DNA of 50,820 nucleotides, from the IMG/VR virus record IMGVR_UViG_3300036818_000065, positions 1 through 50,820 of that record; one strand, 5' to 3'. This DNA is from a virus. Shown here in pieces: positions 5,929 to 29,506 of this stretch; positions within the stretch are counted from its first letter, which is position 1, and each line of letters begins with the position of its first letter. Both the position numbers and the translations under genes were made by a program. The notes under the pieces are model-generated. The model did not search any database. It was given only the letters and a program-made list of their open reading frames with translations, and was not told the DNA's origin.

Positions 5929-6831
5929 ATGCCAAAAGAAAACAGCCCTGTTCATCCGCTGGGTCCTCCGACCCTGTCGGGCAACGAGCTCACGGTTGAC
6001 ACGATGCTGGAACAGCCAACCCGCATCACCAACATGATCATGGACCTGTCTCTGCAGAAATTCATCATCGACAGGATCTTTGCATCGGCTGGTGGTGTAA
6101 CCGGCGGCGCCATCGTGTACGACGTTACGAGCGCGAACGAAATTTACGCGTCGCGTGACATCGGGCGCGTGTCGCCTGGCGGCGAGTTCCCGCTCATCAC
6201 CAGCGAGCGTCCCGTACCCTCGATTGCAGAAGTCGAGAAGTGGGGCGCCAAAGTGTTCATCACTGAGGAGGCGAAAGAACGCAACAACAGCGCTCTCTTC
6301 ACCAACAAGGTTCGCCAGATGACGAACACCATCATCCGCAAGCTCAACCAGAGGGCTATTGCGGAGCTGGAGAAGTCGATTGAAGCATCTGAACAGAAAA
6401 CGAACGGAAACAATTGGGCGGCTGTCAAAACTGCCGGGGTCGAAGCCTCGCAGGCTGACAAATTCCCGGCGTTCGATTTCGCCCACGTTCAGCAGCTGGC
6501 AGACGAAGATGAGCTCGGCATCGTCTACAACCTGTGGCTCCTTAACCCGCAGGAGTTCACGCGGCTTGTCACGATCTACGGGTCGGCAAACCTGCGGCCT
6601 CTGCTGCAGGAGCTCGGCATCGACATCTACGTGTCGAACCGGGTTACCGCTGGAACGGCGTACGTCGTCGCCCAGCAGCAAGTCGGTGAGATGCGTGTCG
6701 AGAAACCGCTGACCACTCGTACGTGGTACGAGGAGGAAACCGAGCGCACCTGGGTTCAGTCCAGCGTCCGCCCGGTGATGTTCGTGAACAACCCGTTCGC
6801 GGTGGTCAAAGTAGAAAAACTCGCGGGGTGA
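5929..6831 (+). CDS. Major capsid protein (HK97 fold expected)
   Basis: 300 aa, ATG after a strong AAGGGAAGGAGGAAGAGC leader, consistent with high expression. The position after protease/scaffold and cement protein, and the sequence pattern, identify it as the capsid subunit. The N-terminal part has EQPTRITNMIMDL, then YASRDIGRVSPGGEFPLI; the middle has KVRQMTNTIIRKLNQRAIAE (spine helix-like); the C-terminus has RPVMFVNNPFAVVKVEKL. No obvious delta domain is visible, so scaffolding probably comes from the separate product at 4798. Confidence 0.85.
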   Translation: MPKENSPVHPLGPPTLSGNELTVDTMLEQPTRITNMIMDLSLQKFIIDRIFASAGGVTGGAIVYDVTSANEIYASRDIGRVSPGGEFPLITSERPVPSIAEVEKWGAKVFITEEAKERNNSALFTNKVRQMTNTIIRKLNQRAIAELEKSIEASEQKTNGNNWAAVKTAGVEASQADKFPAFDFAHVQQLADEDELGIVYNLWLLNPQEFTRLVTIYGSANLRPLLQELGIDIYVSNRVTAGTAYVVAQQQVGEMRVEKPLTTRTWYEEETERTWVQSSVRPVMFVNNPFAVVKVEKLAG

Positions 6832-6835
6832 TCGA

Positions 6836-7534
6836 ATGGAAACTCGCGAGATAAAAATCCGTTCATTCGTTTACACGTCGACGTTCAAGGACTTCGACGG
6901 AGTTGAGCGATCGCAGCAACAGATCGCTTCTAAAGGAGACACCGTCGAAATCAGCGACTACTGGATTCGCTACGGTGAAGACATGGGTGCGTTCGTTACT
7001 GACGCTGATCGCGAAGCAGAAGAGACGGACGAAGATGTGCTTGACACGGCTGAGACGGTCGAGGAAATGGGCGACGACGAACTCATGAATTGGGTTTCGG
7101 ACAAGACCATTCCCGAGATTCTTTCCGTGGCCAACGCAGATCCAACCCTGTGCGCGAGACTGCTGGATGCCGAGAACAAGGCGACTGGCAACGACCCGCG
7201 TACCGGATTGCTGGAGGCCCTGACCCATATCATGGCTGCTAGTGAGGGCAGTGGTGCTCTTGCCGAGACTGAAGAAAGTGTCGAGGACCTGGCCAAGCGG
7301 CTGGGCGTCGACCTGGAACAGGTTGAGGGTACTGGCGAAGACGACGAGATCACCGTCGATGACGTCAAGGAGTACTACGACGAAGAGATCGCAGACGCCA
7401 CCGACGGCGCTGTTGAGCTCGCTGAGGAGAAGCAGTTGTTCCTGGCGGACATCACCGGCACCGGCGCGGACGGACGCATCACCAAAGACGACGTCCAGAA
7501 GTTCCTGGACAAGCGCGAGGCCGCATCCGAGTGA
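6836..7534 (+). CDS. Head/neck protein with two E2-type peripheral-subunit-binding-like motifs
   Basis: 232 aa, directly after the capsid gene. The N-terminal 55 residues are beta-rich (KIRSFVYTSTF, DTVEISDYW); residues about 60-145 are acidic and helical. The C-terminus holds two copies of a short motif: about 149-181 (DLAKRLGVDLEQVEGTG, then DVKEY) and 192-224 (ADITGTGADGRITKDDV). This is the hallmark pattern of the peripheral subunit-binding domain of 2-oxo-acid dehydrogenase E2 proteins (helix, GTG, G-R-I, DV). A third copy is in the gene at 9174. A connector or head-completion role is inferred from position only. Confidence 0.6.
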   Translation: METREIKIRSFVYTSTFKDFDGVERSQQQIASKGDTVEISDYWIRYGEDMGAFVTDADREAEETDEDVLDTAETVEEMGDDELMNWVSDKTIPEILSVANADPTLCARLLDAENKATGNDPRTGLLEALTHIMAASEGSGALAETEESVEDLAKRLGVDLEQVEGTGEDDEITVDDVKEYYDEEIADATDGAVELAEEKQLFLADITGTGADGRITKDDVQKFLDKREAASE

Positions 7535-7608
7535 AGTTGGCCGCAGACAGCAAGCAGGGCTGGCAGGCAACTGTCGGCCCTGCGCTGCCCGCGCTGGGGC
7601 AGCTCTGA
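7531..7608 (+). CDS. Possible 25-residue coupling ORF
   Basis: A GTG start overlaps the previous stop (GTGA) and the TGA overlaps the next ATG by one base (TGATG), so this small frame exactly fills the gap between two neck genes. The peptide begins VKLAADSKQGW and ends PALPALGQL. It may be a translated relay that couples the neighbours, or chance. There is no homology I recognise and no independent ribosome site. Confidence 0.3.
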   Translation: MKLAADSKQGWQATVGPALPALGQL

Positions 7609-8060
7609 TGAACTACGCCTGGGAAGCCAGTGTCGAAGATGTTGCGGCGTTGTTGCCGCAGCGCACCAAGGGTGAGTACGGTAAAGATGGGGAATTCACT
7701 GAAGGCACCACCCCGACCAAAAAACAAGTCGAAGACATCCTTGTAAAATCTGCCGGGCGCATAGCAAGCAAGCTGCGTCTTAAGGGCGAAAAAGACATCT
7801 GCTCCGACGGACCGATTGGCATGGCGGAAGAAGTGCATGCCTTGCGCGCCGCGATGATGGTGGAGCTCACCTACTTCGCGAATCAGCTGCGCACCGATCA
7901 GTCTCCATATAAAAACTTGAAAGAGCAATACGACGAAGGAATCAAGGATCTGCTTGCAGCCTATGAGGACGAGTGCGGTGGTGGCACCGGGCTTGGTGGC
8001 GAGGAGAGACCTAAAGGTTCATTCCCACGACCGCGTCGTTGGAATCGGAGGAGATTCTGA
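7608..8060 (+). CDS. Head-tail connector protein (gp6-like adaptor)
   Basis: 150 aa. ATG at 7608 was chosen because it follows the upstream frame as TGATG and gives the usual adaptor N-terminus (NYAWEASVEDVAALLPQRTK). The pattern, an N-terminal segment listing tag positions, 'EDILVKSAGRIASKL', then a long helix with repeated acidic residues, is typical of small head-tail connector proteins. It would bind under the portal ring. The C-terminus is basic (PRPRRWNRRRF). Confidence 0.62.
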   Translation: MNYAWEASVEDVAALLPQRTKGEYGKDGEFTEGTTPTKKQVEDILVKSAGRIASKLRLKGEKDICSDGPIGMAEEVHALRAAMMVELTYFANQLRTDQSPYKNLKEQYDEGIKDLLAAYEDECGGGTGLGGEERPKGSFPRPRRWNRRRF

Positions 8061-8536
8061 TGCCAGGCGTGGTGATTGAGTTTGAGGCATTTGGCCACAA
8101 ACAGATCGTTCGTGAACTTGAGCGTTTTGCAGACTTTGCCGGTGACGCTGCGCCTGCTTGGGAGAAGATCATCGACCTGATGCGCGAGGATATCCAGGAG
8201 CAATTCGACTCCGAGGGGCAGAGCATGTCAGGTGGTTGGGCTCCTCTCAAGCCGGTCACCATCGAACGCAAGGCTGCACTTGGCCTGAGCCCAGAGATCA
8301 TGCGAGCTACTGATAGGCTGATGCAGTCGCTGACCGATGAGCGTGGCGGCGACCAGGTTCACGAGGTGACGCCACATGGCTTTGACTTTGGTTCCAAGGT
8401 GGACTACGGCAAATACCACATGGGTCCAGCCAAGGACGGAAGCCGTCCGGCTCGACCTCCGATCGACTTCACTGAGGCTCAACGTCGAAAGTACGTCAAG
8501 GTGCTGCAGACGTATCTGATGGGCGGAGAGATATGA
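8060..8536 (+). CDS. Virion morphogenesis protein (Mu gpG-like, tail completion)
   Basis: 158 aa. The ATG at 8060 overlaps the previous stop by one base and has GGAGGAG six bases upstream, so it is preferred to the TTG at 8039. The pattern ELERFADFAGDAAPAWEKI, DIQEQFDSEG, GGWAPLKPVTIERKA and IMRATDRLMQSLT is that of the phage virion morphogenesis family (Mu gpG). In that family the protein acts in head completion or tail joining. It lies between the connector and the probable tail terminator. Confidence 0.75.
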   Translation: MPGVVIEFEAFGHKQIVRELERFADFAGDAAPAWEKIIDLMREDIQEQFDSEGQSMSGGWAPLKPVTIERKAALGLSPEIMRATDRLMQSLTDERGGDQVHEVTPHGFDFGSKVDYGKYHMGPAKDGSRPARPPIDFTEAQRRKYVKVLQTYLMGGEI

Positions 8537-9177
8537 CCGACTTCTCCAAATTTGGACTCAGCGTCAGCCGCAAGCACGTGATGGATTCGGTTGAAGCAAC
8601 CATCAAAGCTTTCGAAGAAGACTACCTGTCAGAGGCCGAGCGCCAATGGGGATTGAACCCCCATGACTTGCCCACGTTCAAAACCCATTCGCAGGTCAAC
8701 GAATTCCGCAATTGGGCTGATGACGAAACGCCAGTGTGCGTGATTGTGTCGCCTGGACTGGCAGGACGCCCAGAAAAGAAGGGCAGCGGATTGTACATGG
8801 GCAAATTTGACCTTGGGGTGGCTTGCATTGTGCAGGCCAACAACCGTGAGAACACCAACCGGCTGGCTGATATCTACGGGCCGGCCATTCGCCAGCTGTT
8901 GCTGCAGCAGATTGGATTCGGTGGCCTCATATCCGGCATAGATTTCGTGGACGAAAAAGCAAACGACGTCCCGGAAAGTGAAGACCGTGCGCAAACTGCT
9001 GTGCAGGTGATCTTCACTGTAGATGTGCCTGGGATCGTCAACGGCAGGCTTGGCATAGCCGCTCCTTCCGAAGACCCCTACGGCGAAGATCTGGAAAAAC
9101 CAGATGAACAGTCGGAAGCGGCCGTGGCAGAGAAAGCTACGGCAACTGTTGAAAAGAAAGATGAGGTGGAGCCATGA
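8533..9177 (+). CDS. Probable tail terminator / neck protein
   Basis: 214 aa; ATG overlaps the previous stop (ATGA). The body (residues about 10-175) has an alpha/beta pattern, with TPVCVIVSPGL, MGKFDLGVACIVQAN and AQTAVQVIFTVDVPGIV, like tail terminator proteins that cap the tail tube. An acidic, Ala/Lys/Glu-rich tail follows (EAAVAEKATATVEKKDE). No strict family signature is recognised; the position just before the sheath supports the call. Confidence 0.5.
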   Translation: MTDFSKFGLSVSRKHVMDSVEATIKAFEEDYLSEAERQWGLNPHDLPTFKTHSQVNEFRNWADDETPVCVIVSPGLAGRPEKKGSGLYMGKFDLGVACIVQANNRENTNRLADIYGPAIRQLLLQQIGFGGLISGIDFVDEKANDVPESEDRAQTAVQVIFTVDVPGIVNGRLGIAAPSEDPYGEDLEKPDEQSEAAVAEKATATVEKKDEVEP

Positions 9178-9539
9178 CGGCCACTACGTTCCACAAGGTG
9201 CGGAGCAGCCACCCCGAGGACGACGCCGAAGGTAGGGTGTTCGCCCCTGGGGAGTTGGTCCCAAATCTTGATGTGGGCGATCCGTACAATCAGGAGAAGA
9301 TAGATTCTGGCGTCTTCTTCGAGATCGACGGAGAACCCATCCAAGAAGATCCAGCGCCCGGCGAGGGCAGTGCTGGTGATGAGGTCAATGCCAGCGATGC
9401 TGCTAAACGTCTGGCTGAGGAACATGAAATCGACCTGTCAACCATAGAAGGCACTGGCAAAGACGGCCGCATCATCGACACCGACGTAGAAAGTGTTGTT
9501 GAGGAACAGGACGATTCTAATCAGGAAGGAGACGACTAG
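9174..9539 (+). CDS. Neck protein with one peripheral-subunit-binding-like motif
   Basis: 121 aa; ATG overlaps the previous stop (ATGA). The N-terminal half is beta-like (EGRVFAPGELVPNLDVGD). Residues about 74-108 carry AKRLAEEHEIDL, then IEGTGKDGRI and DV, a third copy of the E2-type binding motif also found twice at 6836-7534. The tail is acidic (EEQDDSNQEGDD). It may be the partner or paralogue of the 6836 protein at the head-tail joint. The function is unknown. Confidence 0.6.
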   Translation: MTATTFHKVRSSHPEDDAEGRVFAPGELVPNLDVGDPYNQEKIDSGVFFEIDGEPIQEDPAPGEGSAGDEVNASDAAKRLAEEHEIDLSTIEGTGKDGRIIDTDVESVVEEQDDSNQEGDD

Positions 9540-10987
9540 TGCCTGCACCAGGTAGCGAAGTCATTGAACGTCAGTCTCCTCCCTCTCGGTCTACGCCGAT
9601 TCAGAGCGGGTCGTGGTTCATTGCCGGAATGGCAGACCGTGGCTCGGTCAAAGAAGCGGTGACCGTCCGCAATCTACAACAGTTCGAAGACGCATTCGGA
9701 GAATTCGTCAGTTACGGAACGTTGTACAGCGCTGCGGACGTGTTCTTCCGCGAGGGAGGTTCGGTCCTTAATGCGACGAGGGTGGTAGGACCGGCTGCCA
9801 AATCAGCAACCATCACGATCAAAAACGCTAGCGCAGAAAACACTCTCGTCGTAACGGCTATCAGCCCCGGTGAATGGGGCAATGACGTCGACGTAGAAAT
9901 CACTGCTGGCCTGGTTGAAGGCAACTTCACCATCACTGTCCTGGAGGACGGCAAAGAGGTGGAGGGGTCACTCGAACTCGCCGACAATGAAGCAGCTGTG
10001 GCTTGGGCTGCAGAACAGTCCAAATACATCAGGTTGGAAGATCTGGGTAAAGGCGATCCCAAAGCCGGGAAAGCTGAATTGAAAGAAGGAGCTGACGACA
10101 GGAACAACGCTCTCGATTCGCATTGGGAAGAAGCAATTAACAACAACTTCCCAAAGTCGATGGGTCCTGGGCAGGTCAGCATGCCAGGTCGCACCACCGA
10201 CGCTAGCTATAAAGCGCAGCTGGAACATTCCTTTGAAAGGAATCGGATCGCTCTGCTGGACGGAACCGACACCTCCAGCAAAGCTACGTTGATCGGCGAC
10301 GCTGCAGTTGGCCGGGCAATGGGAGTTGTCGGGGGCAAAGGTGGGCTGTTTGGCAGCTGGTACATAGTGCCCGGCCTCGCACTCGGAACGACCAGGACGG
10401 TCCCGCCCAGCTGCGTGGAGGCAGGCATCCTTGCCCGCCTGGCATCAGAAGGGTACAGCCCCAACAAACCGGGCGCAGGCGAACGCTACGGCCGTTCACG
10501 CTACGCCATCGACCTCGCTCAGCCGGAATGGTCAGAAGATGACCGCTCCGACCTGAATGAAGCCGGGGTCAATGTTGCGGTCATGAAGGACAGTGTTGCC
10601 GTCAACATGGGGTTCAGGACCATGGTCAACCCTGTCTCTAACGACACCTGGTTGCTGCTAAGCAACTCTAGGCTGTATATGGAGATTGCTGCAAAAGCAA
10701 ATCAGATCGCGGACAGCTACGTGTTCGAGGAGATCGACGGCAAGGGATTGGTGTTTGCCAAACTCAACGGTGAGCTCACTGGCATGTTGCTTCCCTACTT
10801 CCCAGGTTCGCTCTACGGCGAAACCTTCGAAGAAGCAGTGTTCGTCAACACCGGCTCTCAGGTCAACACGGAACAGACCATTGCCGCCCGCGAAATCAAT
10901 GCTGTGATCGAGCTTCGCATGGCTCCTTATGGAGAGCGTGTGAAAATTGAAATCAGCAAGATCGCGACCACGGAGGCGATCGTCTGA
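9539..10987 (+). CDS. Contractile tail sheath protein
   Basis: 482 aa, GTG start overlapping the previous stop by one base. The N-terminus (PAPGSEVIERQSPPSRS...QSGSWFIAGMADRGS) is typical of myovirus sheath proteins. So is the following segment, with a target-region phrase (VTVRNLQQFEDAFG), and the conserved C-terminal core with ANQIADSYVFEEIDGKG and AAREINAVIELRMAP. It polymerises around the tube and contracts to drive injection. It is immediately followed by the tube gene, as in other myoviruses. Confidence 0.9.
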   Translation: MPAPGSEVIERQSPPSRSTPIQSGSWFIAGMADRGSVKEAVTVRNLQQFEDAFGEFVSYGTLYSAADVFFREGGSVLNATRVVGPAAKSATITIKNASAENTLVVTAISPGEWGNDVDVEITAGLVEGNFTITVLEDGKEVEGSLELADNEAAVAWAAEQSKYIRLEDLGKGDPKAGKAELKEGADDRNNALDSHWEEAINNNFPKSMGPGQVSMPGRTTDASYKAQLEHSFERNRIALLDGTDTSSKATLIGDAAVGRAMGVVGGKGGLFGSWYIVPGLALGTTRTVPPSCVEAGILARLASEGYSPNKPGAGERYGRSRYAIDLAQPEWSEDDRSDLNEAGVNVAVMKDSVAVNMGFRTMVNPVSNDTWLLLSNSRLYMEIAAKANQIADSYVFEEIDGKGLVFAKLNGELTGMLLPYFPGSLYGETFEEAVFVNTGSQVNTEQTIAAREINAVIELRMAPYGERVKIEISKIATTEAIV

Positions 10988-27187: not shown

Positions 27188-27260
27188 GCCGGGTTAGACT
27201 AATTGGAAAAGTCGCAGGCTTTGTAAGCCTGAGTTGCGAGTTCGAATCTCGTACCCGGTA
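27188..27260 (+). tRNA. tRNA-Thr (anticodon UGU)
   Basis: A full cloverleaf can be drawn by eye. Acceptor stem GCCGGGT/ACCCGGT (first pair G-U), D stem GAC/GTC with loop TAATTGGAAAA, anticodon stem CAGGC/GCCTG around the loop TTTGTAA (anticodon TGT), T stem GCGAG/CTCGT with loop TTCGAAT, discriminator A. CCA is not encoded. It starts four bases after the nuclease stop, so it is co-transcribed and must be cut out. It reads ACA threonine codons. Confidence 0.9.
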
Positions 27261-27261
27261 C

Positions 27262-27948: not shown

Positions 27949-28724
27949 GACCGCAGAAGCCAAAGTTGGGAGCGTCGGCTCAGATGCTCATTCATGGACC
28001 GCCGGGCATAGGCAAGACGCTTCTCATAGCGCAGCAGCCGCGCACCCTGATCATGCACCCGCCTACGGACCATCTGGATTCCATTCATAAACCCAGCAAC
28101 GTCGAAGAGATCATTCTGGGTGATCACGACGACTTCGATCAGGCATTTGAGTATCTGCAACAAGGCGGTGGTGAAGAGTTTGATTGGGTGTGGTTAGACA
28201 GCCTGTCTCTTTTCCAAGACCATGGGCTAGATGAAATTTGGAAGAATCTCATCGCGGCCAAACCCAACCGCAAAGAGTGGGGGCTGGACAAAGGCGAGTA
28301 CGGCCGCAACATGGAGCGCATTGCGCGTCGCACCCGCGAGCTGGTAGGACTGAGCATGACGGGGATGTTCCACCTGGGAATCACCTGCCACACTGAGATG
28401 CTGTACGATCCCGAGACTGAGAAAGACATGCTGATGCCTTGGGTGCAAGGTAAGGGCATGAGCACCCGCACGATGGCGGCGATGAACCTTGTCGGGTACT
28501 ACCGATGGGTCGCCGTTAAAAAAGGAAACAAAAAGCGACGTGCGCGCGTTCTGGACTTCCATGAAACGGAGGCGTTCAAAGCCAAGGACCAGCTTAACGT
28601 CTTTGGTGAGAGCGGGCGGTTGATCTCGCCGACCATGCCCGACATTCATCGGGCCATTGCAACCAAGAAGAAAGGTGGCAGCACTGCCGCCCCAAAACGG
28701 CGTAAACGCGCCAGGAGGAAATGA
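27945..28724 (+). CDS. RecA-fold ATPase, Sak4-like recombinase
   Basis: 259 aa; ATG overlaps the MazG-like stop (ATGA). Walker A GPPGIGKT at residues 18-25 and a Walker B-like FDWVWLDS at about 80-87. The early HPPTDHLDS segment and the lack of other domains fit the phage AAA_24/Sak4 family of single-strand annealing or strand-exchange ATPases. The C-terminus is basic (KRRKRARRK). It lies immediately upstream of a probable SSB, the usual Sak4 partner. Confidence 0.78.
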   Translation: MRPQKPKLGASAQMLIHGPPGIGKTLLIAQQPRTLIMHPPTDHLDSIHKPSNVEEIILGDHDDFDQAFEYLQQGGGEEFDWVWLDSLSLFQDHGLDEIWKNLIAAKPNRKEWGLDKGEYGRNMERIARRTRELVGLSMTGMFHLGITCHTEMLYDPETEKDMLMPWVQGKGMSTRTMAAMNLVGYYRWVAVKKGNKKRRARVLDFHETEAFKAKDQLNVFGESGRLISPTMPDIHRAIATKKKGGSTAAPKRRKRARRK

Positions 28725-29506
28725 TGCCCAAAGTCAAATACGACCTGCGGGATGTAGAGGCTGCAGGTGAAGGTTTCGAGACGCCGCCGCCCGGCTTGTA
28801 TCGCGCCAAACTAGCTGAGTGTAACATGACTCAGTCAAAGGCTGGCAACGACATGCTCGAATGCGTGTACGAGCTAACCAGGGGCGACTACAAAGGCAGC
28901 AAAGTCTGGGACTATATCGTCATTGGCGTAGAGGGATTCCCGGAACGAAAGCTGCGGCAGTTCCTGGAGGCTGTCGAACACATTACCGGCAAAAAGAATG
29001 CCAAGGGGTCGTTTGACCCCGACGAGTTCGAGGACAGCGAGGTTCAGCTGCGACTCAAGAACGAAACTTACGAAGACGAGCCACGCGCCAGGGTGGCTGC
29101 CGTGCTGCCTCTGCCTGAGGATGACGAGGACGAAGAAGAGATCGACGCCGAAGGCGAAGAGGATGACGACGACGAAGAAGGCGCAGGCGAGGAGTACACC
29201 TATGAGGAACTCGAAGGCATGGACCTCAAAGAGCTCAAAGAAGTCGTCGATGAGGAAGAGCTTGAGGGCATCCGCGTAACCAAAAAATCCAAGCAAGAGA
29301 CCGTCTTGGCTAAGGTGGCTGAGGCGCTTGAGCTAGAGCCTGCAGAGGAAGACGAGGACGGAGACGAGGTTGAGTACGAGGACATGACCCCCGAAGAACT
29401 CAAAGCAGAGCTCAATGACCGTGGCCTGAAAACGGCGGGCAAAAAAGCAGTACTGATCGCCCGCCTGGAGAAGGATGACGAGGAGGCTGAGAATCCCTTC
29501 GAGTAG
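28721..29506 (+). CDS. Single-strand DNA-binding protein (DUF669-like) with SAP-like modules
   Basis: 261 aa, ATG with AGGAGGAA. The first about 120 residues match the DUF669 phage SSB pattern (PPPGLYRAKLAECNMTQSKAGNDML, then VWDYIVIG). An acidic linker leads to two HeH/SAP-like helical modules: about 160-205 (MDLKELKEVVDEEELEGIRV) and about 222-252 (MTPEELKAELNDRGLKTAGKK), the second a good SAP motif. It ends in an acidic tip (DDEEAENPFE), as SSBs usually do to recruit partners. SAP modules add DNA or protein contacts; two in one SSB is unusual. Confidence 0.78.
   Translation: MMPKVKYDLRDVEAAGEGFETPPPGLYRAKLAECNMTQSKAGNDMLECVYELTRGDYKGSKVWDYIVIGVEGFPERKLRQFLEAVEHITGKKNAKGSFDPDEFEDSEVQLRLKNETYEDEPRARVAAVLPLPEDDEDEEEIDAEGEEDDDDEEGAGEEYTYEELEGMDLKELKEVVDEEELEGIRVTKKSKQETVLAKVAEALELEPAEEDEDGDEVEYEDMTPEELKAELNDRGLKTAGKKAVLIARLEKDDEEAENPFE

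Follow-up and report, generated by a model that had tools for sequence, protein, structure and literature searches.

Why does a phage encode, directly beside its capsid and tail sheath genes, small proteins with a domain known from bacterial enzyme complexes? The peripheral-subunit-binding domain (PSBD) is well known from textbooks and is assigned to the 2-oxo acid dehydrogenase complexes like pyruvate dehydrogenase, where it binds E1 or E3 and holds the complex together. The window analysed here is the IMG/VR record IMGVR_UViG_3300036818_000065, a stretch of 50,820 nt from a contractile-tailed phage that is known from sequence alone. An earlier note on this DNA had described three PSBD motifs in two proteins, here called X1 and X2. 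The E1/E3-binding pair named below refers to the two basic helix-1 positions 135 and 136 (B. stearothermophilus numbering), which we take to be the residues that contact E1 and E3. The region contains the following features:

5929..6831, + strand: major capsid protein (phrog_1650; PHROG match E 1.7e-66), directly 5' of X1
6836..7534, + strand: X1, 232 aa, with N-terminal beta domain, helical middle, linker and two PSBDs
7280..7369, + strand: PSBD copy 1 of X1 (PF02817, 32-34 bits), loop degenerate (GTGEDDEI), E/D at the E1/E3-binding pair
7418..7498, + strand: PSBD copy 2 of X1 (PF02817, 38-39 bits), intact GTGADGRI, V/E at the E1/E3-binding pair
7593..8060, + strand: gene at the head-tail adaptor position, 155 aa if the start is 7593, assigned by position only
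8039..8536, + strand: tail completion / Neck1 protein (phrog_26, E 1.3e-13)
8533..9177, + strand: gene at the tail-terminator position, assigned by position only, no family match in PHROG or Pfam
9174..9539, + strand: X2, 121 aa, with small N-terminal beta domain, disordered linker and one PSBD
9393..9491, + strand: PSBD of X2 (PF02817, 48.7 bits), intact GTGKDGRI, K-R kept at the E1/E3-binding pair
9539..10987, + strand: tail sheath (phrog_23, E 3.6e-22), directly 3' of X2

Both genes are tightly packed against their neighbours. X1 starts 5 bases after the end of the capsid gene, the start of X2 overlaps the stop of the preceding gene and its stop overlaps the start of the sheath gene. The name head/neck proteins holds for the gene position, and membership in the virion is deduced from it. 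The gene at the head-tail adaptor position sits inside a longer open frame (7242-8060); it gave no match in Pfam, nor did its homologue in the related contig L053 in the PHROG scan.

X1 and X2 carry a true PSBD, both as domain and as fold. The Pfam profile PF02817 (E3_binding) matched X1 in two stretches (62 bits, E 6e-17) and X2 with 46.8 bits (E 3e-12), and the three isolated segments scored 33.9, 39.0 and 48.9 bits, all above the gathering score of 23.7 bits. When all six frames of the record were searched with this profile, exactly three PSBDs were found (7280-7369, 7418-7498 and 9393-9491), within a few codons of the positions first proposed. Comparison with the PDB sequences by phmmer led to E2 enzymes, matched in their PSBDs, with 1w4i as the best match (E 3e-6). 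For X1 an AlphaFold2 model was built on five sequences, for X2 on four. Mean pLDDT was 81 for X1 and 76 for X2, and the pTM values (0.37 and 0.39) are low, as a beads-on-a-string architecture leads one to expect. At all PSBD sites of both proteins the models contain helix-loop-helix units with pLDDT of about 80-87. In Foldseek searches against the PDB, PSBDs of E2 enzymes fill nearly all top ranks for both models, with target TM mostly 0.6-0.9 (up to 0.90) and an rmsd of 0.6-1.3 A for most; the best E-values (0.004 and 0.02) are weak because the PSBD is short. Given these profile scores and structural matches, neither a different fold nor a likeness limited to the GTG phrase was found, and the three proposed motifs are PSBDs. 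The GTGxxGRI loop, assumed earlier to occur three times, is intact in X2 and in copy 2 of X1, whereas copy 1 reads GTGEDDEI and may bind nothing.

The profile, the GTGxxGRI loop, the two-helix fold and the flexible linker are shared with the E2 PSBDs (PF02817; PDB 3rnm, 1w85, 1ebd, 9h1n). In contrast to E2, however, X1 and X2 are small, acidic proteins of a head/neck module without lipoyl or acyltransferase domain. PF02817 is the sole Pfam family above cut-off in their 232 and 121 aa, and NCBIfam models of E2 match only around the PSBDs, far below their cut-offs. SAP, HeH and Rho-N, other small helical domains that might be considered here, gave no Pfam match in either protein up to E 10.

Outside the PSBDs the two proteins have no detectable relationship. 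X1 consists of a beta domain (residues ~1-55), a helical part (~56-138), a short flexible linker (~137-146) and the two PSBDs, with a net charge of -42; X2 consists of a beta domain (1-52), a disordered linker (55-70) and one PSBD, with a net charge of -26. The N-domain of X2 is modelled with pLDDT of about 90 in most residues and weakly resembles the small beta domain of archaeal GINS proteins (Foldseek probability up to 0.8, N-domain coverage being read from match lengths). For the N-domain of X1, Foldseek against the PDB gave no convincing match. The topologies of the two N-domains look alike in the AlphaFold2 models, viewed without superposition, but hhalign of the N-domain profiles returned a probability of only 0.4%. 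The idea that X1 and X2 are paralogous is therefore without support, and they are better described as two proteins which share a module. Modular growth is nevertheless seen within X1, since its PSBD number is two in the window and in the contigs L005, L055 and L063 but one in L053, so that copy number varies among close relatives.

The identity of the domain raises the possibility that it docks onto E1 or E3 of the host's 2-oxo acid dehydrogenases and so tethers metabolism, hijacks the scaffold or blocks the enzyme. The comparison covered 81 PSBDs from phages and 68 from bacterial E2 enzymes. The E2 domains came almost entirely from a genome scan; they were fetched with a phage-derived loop pattern and are thus not a random sample. 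Positions 135 and 136 are basic in 6/81 and 12/81 of the phage copies versus 56/68 and 67/68 of the bacterial E2 copies (Fisher p about 1e-22 and 1e-28, calculated on sequences that are not independent). The largest phage lineage, with 47 of the 81 sequences, dominates these counts; if it is left out, the positions are basic in 6/34 and 10/34 (p 3e-10 and 2e-14). The fold core, on the other hand, is largely common to phage and E2 domains (A138, V148, G150-T151-G152, G155, I157 and D161). The basic pair of the E2 domain is thus lost in most phage copies and also in X1, where it is replaced by E/D and V/E. X2 of the window is the main exception, which keeps K-R at the pair together with K153 and R156; its relatives keep the second residue only. 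The mean net charge of the PSBD is -3.0 in phages versus +0.25 in E2, and reaches -11 and -5 in the two copies of X1 and -6 in X2. The interaction of the PSBD with E1 or E3 was described as an electrostatic zipper formed by charged helix-1 residues (PMC9974300; PMC6270654), which does not fit well with such acidic domains; nor does a location next to the genes for capsid and sheath point to metabolism. Despite the true PSBD fold and family, docking onto the host enzymes is therefore a very unlikely explanation of these proteins. The suggestion of docking to host metabolic complexes fares differently for the two: by its residues at the pair, X1 is unlikely to bind them, whereas X2 with its K-R pair might do so.

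In addition, we analyzed where PSBD genes are located in other viral genomes. When IMG/VR was scanned with an alignment of PSBDs, 59 contigs were found; together with the window, this gives 60 viral sequences with 66 PSBD genes. Neighbours were assigned by gene-neighbour clustering and PHROG scans. A capsid, portal or sheath gene adjoins 50 of the 66 genes, window included, although many contigs come from one lineage and these are therefore not 50 independent events. Most of the genes (41/66) lie between or beside a capsid (phrog_617) and a portal gene, 4/66 directly follow a capsid of the phrog_1650 type and 3/66 directly precede a sheath gene; one each follows a phrog_3990 capsid (L036) and a phrog_283 capsid (L048). 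At least four capsid families thus have an adjoining PSBD gene. The proteins themselves show several architectures, among them the X1/X2 type (window, L005, L053, L055, L063), proteins with N-terminal PSBDs, and a type of about 98 aa ('MSKVEFIYGKGGKKV'), which is the PSBD protein in most contigs. The arrangement of capsid and X1 followed by X2 and sheath also occurs in L005 and L053, and L063 encodes both proteins. Searches of cultured phages and IMG/VR with full-length X1 and X2 gave no full-length relative. Scans with the N-domain alignments added L063 as the one new X1/X2 contig, the contig L122 and additional members of the large lineage; many locus ids that they returned belong to contigs already known.

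Some PSBD genes are placed elsewhere, near a terminase in L023 and near beta-propeller-like and beta-helix-like genes in L008 and L029. The latter two had been considered as a further capsid-neck-sheath bracket but were discarded, the flanking proteins looking by eye like beta-propeller/BNR-type and beta-helix proteins. A conserved 350-aa gene beside the PSBD gene of the large lineage was likewise rejected as a candidate partner, being a homing endonuclease. An internal PSBD-like stretch (27 bits) was also found in a 2325-aa phage protein (L062:4516-11493).

In the large lineage, the C-terminal end of one small protein varies: it is a PSBD or a different helical module, or it lacks any recognised module. 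In L122 and in the cultured Stenotrophomonas phage SOVA965, a helical module with the motif GKKxYHGW replaces the PSBD at the same locus; in SOVA965 it reads 'ELRAKYQEVVGKKAYHGWDAEELAQKI', and that of L122 gave no match in Pfam. In Pseudomonas phage PAJU2, which is also cultured, the N-domain stands without a recognised module. These three belong to one capsid-portal lineage with the PSBD-bearing phages: capsid and portal of PAJU2 are about 75% identical to theirs (portal up to 76%), and those of SOVA965 61-79% (capsid) and 55-57% (portal). The alternative module also ends a capsid-adjacent gene in Vibrio phage 230E39-1 and Klebsiella phage phi3.2 and matches phrog_590 and phrog_29995, families without assigned function. 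Like the PSBD genes, the genes of SOVA965, PAJU2, 230E39-1 and phi3.2 lie beside the major capsid gene (in phi3.2 one gene further down) and encode a small N-domain, followed by a C-terminal helical module in 3 of the 4; they differ in that this module is other than a PSBD or is not recognised. From the exchange within one lineage it follows that capsid-adjacent proteins can bear different C-terminal plugs which replace each other, the PSBD among them, and that capsid or portal as such do not require it. C-terminal helical modules of the GKKPHH or GKKAYHGW type were seen in capsid-adjacent genes of unrelated phages at L122:2001-2258, L123:4998-5249, L126:3821-4144 and L127:3797-4138.

The genome scan also brought up bacterial PSBDs outside E2. 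Ribosomal protein bL21 carries a C-terminal PSBD in Gemmatimonadota and one uncultured bacterium, as a single copy in L130, L133-L137, L142, L145 and L150 and as two copies in L212:509-1288. In L131:2-2410, the acidic N-terminal region of translation initiation factor IF-2 contains a PSBD; the same genome (G003) also encodes the bL21 with two PSBDs. As in the phages, one or two PSBDs are joined by an acidic or Ala/Pro linker to a protein which is not an E2. Unlike them, these are cellular translation proteins, and the bL21 copies mostly keep the E1/E3-binding pair: in the nine single-copy domains position 135 is basic in 9/9 and position 136 in 7/9, so that partners similar to E1 or E3 could be bound. 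The occurrence on bL21 and IF-2 supports the view of the PSBD as a mobile module.

Two further explanations have to be considered here. The PSBD could be a nucleic-acid-binding helix-loop-helix of the SAP, HeH or Rho-N kind, which touches packaged DNA or RNA. This would agree with its presence on bL21 and IF-2, with the unrelated helical module that takes its place in the same protein, and with the slightly basic character of the large-lineage protein (mean net charge +2). However, the strongly acidic character of X1 and X2 speaks against binding to DNA; their PSBDs are acidic as well, and matches to the profiles of these families were absent; we regard this explanation as quite improbable. 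Alternatively, X1 and X2 may not be virion proteins but chaperones or timing factors of morphogenesis, whose PSBD docks onto a host assembly or translation factor. The bL21 and IF-2 fusions indicate that the domain probably has partners other than dehydrogenases, and the close translational overlap between X2 and the adjoining genes would suit such a role. The consistent adjacency to capsid, portal and sheath genes favours a structural partner instead, and between these phages and the bacteria with PSBD-bL21 no link was found, which makes a non-virion role rather unlikely.

With moderate confidence, we favour the explanation that in this contractile-tailed phage the PSBD is a tethered plug which docks onto a protein for head/neck assembly and can be exchanged; its partner is probably encoded by the phage itself. 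The PSBD recurs at the capsid gene in unrelated uncultured phages, mostly without the residues that grip the enzymes, and therefore looks like a borrowed, swappable assembly plug. Within the head-neck module, X1 and X2 would be small proteins with a structural or an assembly role, present in the virion or acting during its assembly, as judged from gene position. The N-terminal beta domain would serve as anchor, from which the flexible linker presents one or two PSBDs. Such a plug would bind protein rather than DNA; the gene positions suggest capsid, neck or sheath as partners, and an assembly factor may also be considered. Linkers and copy number suit avidity, which the two PSBDs of X1 may add. 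The adaptor domains docking onto another protein that had been suggested for this locus would agree with both the domain identity and its placement at capsid and sheath. It is possible, though speculative, that tailed phages repeatedly acquired this docking domain of the dehydrogenases and turned it towards a partner in the virion, that pairs of PSBD and receptor form a general head-tail snap-fit, its avidity tuned by copy number, in uncultured phages, and that X2 with its E2-type pair might even bring E3 or E1 of the host to the particle.

The PSBD itself is known; new is its use on phage proteins of the capsid locus. In the open-access literature, to which the search was confined, no paper was found that links PSBD, E3_binding or PF02817 to phage proteins. 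That unrelated phages have the domain next to their capsid genes, and bacteria on bL21 and IF-2, suggests a mobile docking module with partners yet to be found. It also offers a testable way into the uncharacterised small proteins that phages encode next to the capsid gene. Automatic annotation could mislabel such proteins as dihydrolipoyl acyltransferases.

Among the matches opened in the cultured-phage collection, no genuine phage PSBD was demonstrated; the further matches were short unverified Listeria and Staphylococcus records and genes annotated as E2. The records of Y12 (L124, OQ572413) and Efs 1-1-1 (L128, OR846616) are labelled as phage but contain bacterial dehydrogenase operons and were excluded, as was the phage-labelled L210 (MT835915), whose E2-like frame has the look of a lipoyl-type E2. 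The match in L209 lies in an 899-aa frame of an unverified faecal record, and an Erwinia match has E 8. A 393-aa acidic protein of Clostridiales (L186:1238-2419) carries a PSBD at its start. In the window itself, one tRNA gene, tRNA-Thr (anticodon tgt), is located at 27188-27261, and an acidic protein is encoded at 28721-29506 whose C-terminal stretches (DLKELKEVVDEEELEG..., TPEELKAELNDRGLKTAGKKAVLIARL) resemble SAP/HeH motifs by eye.
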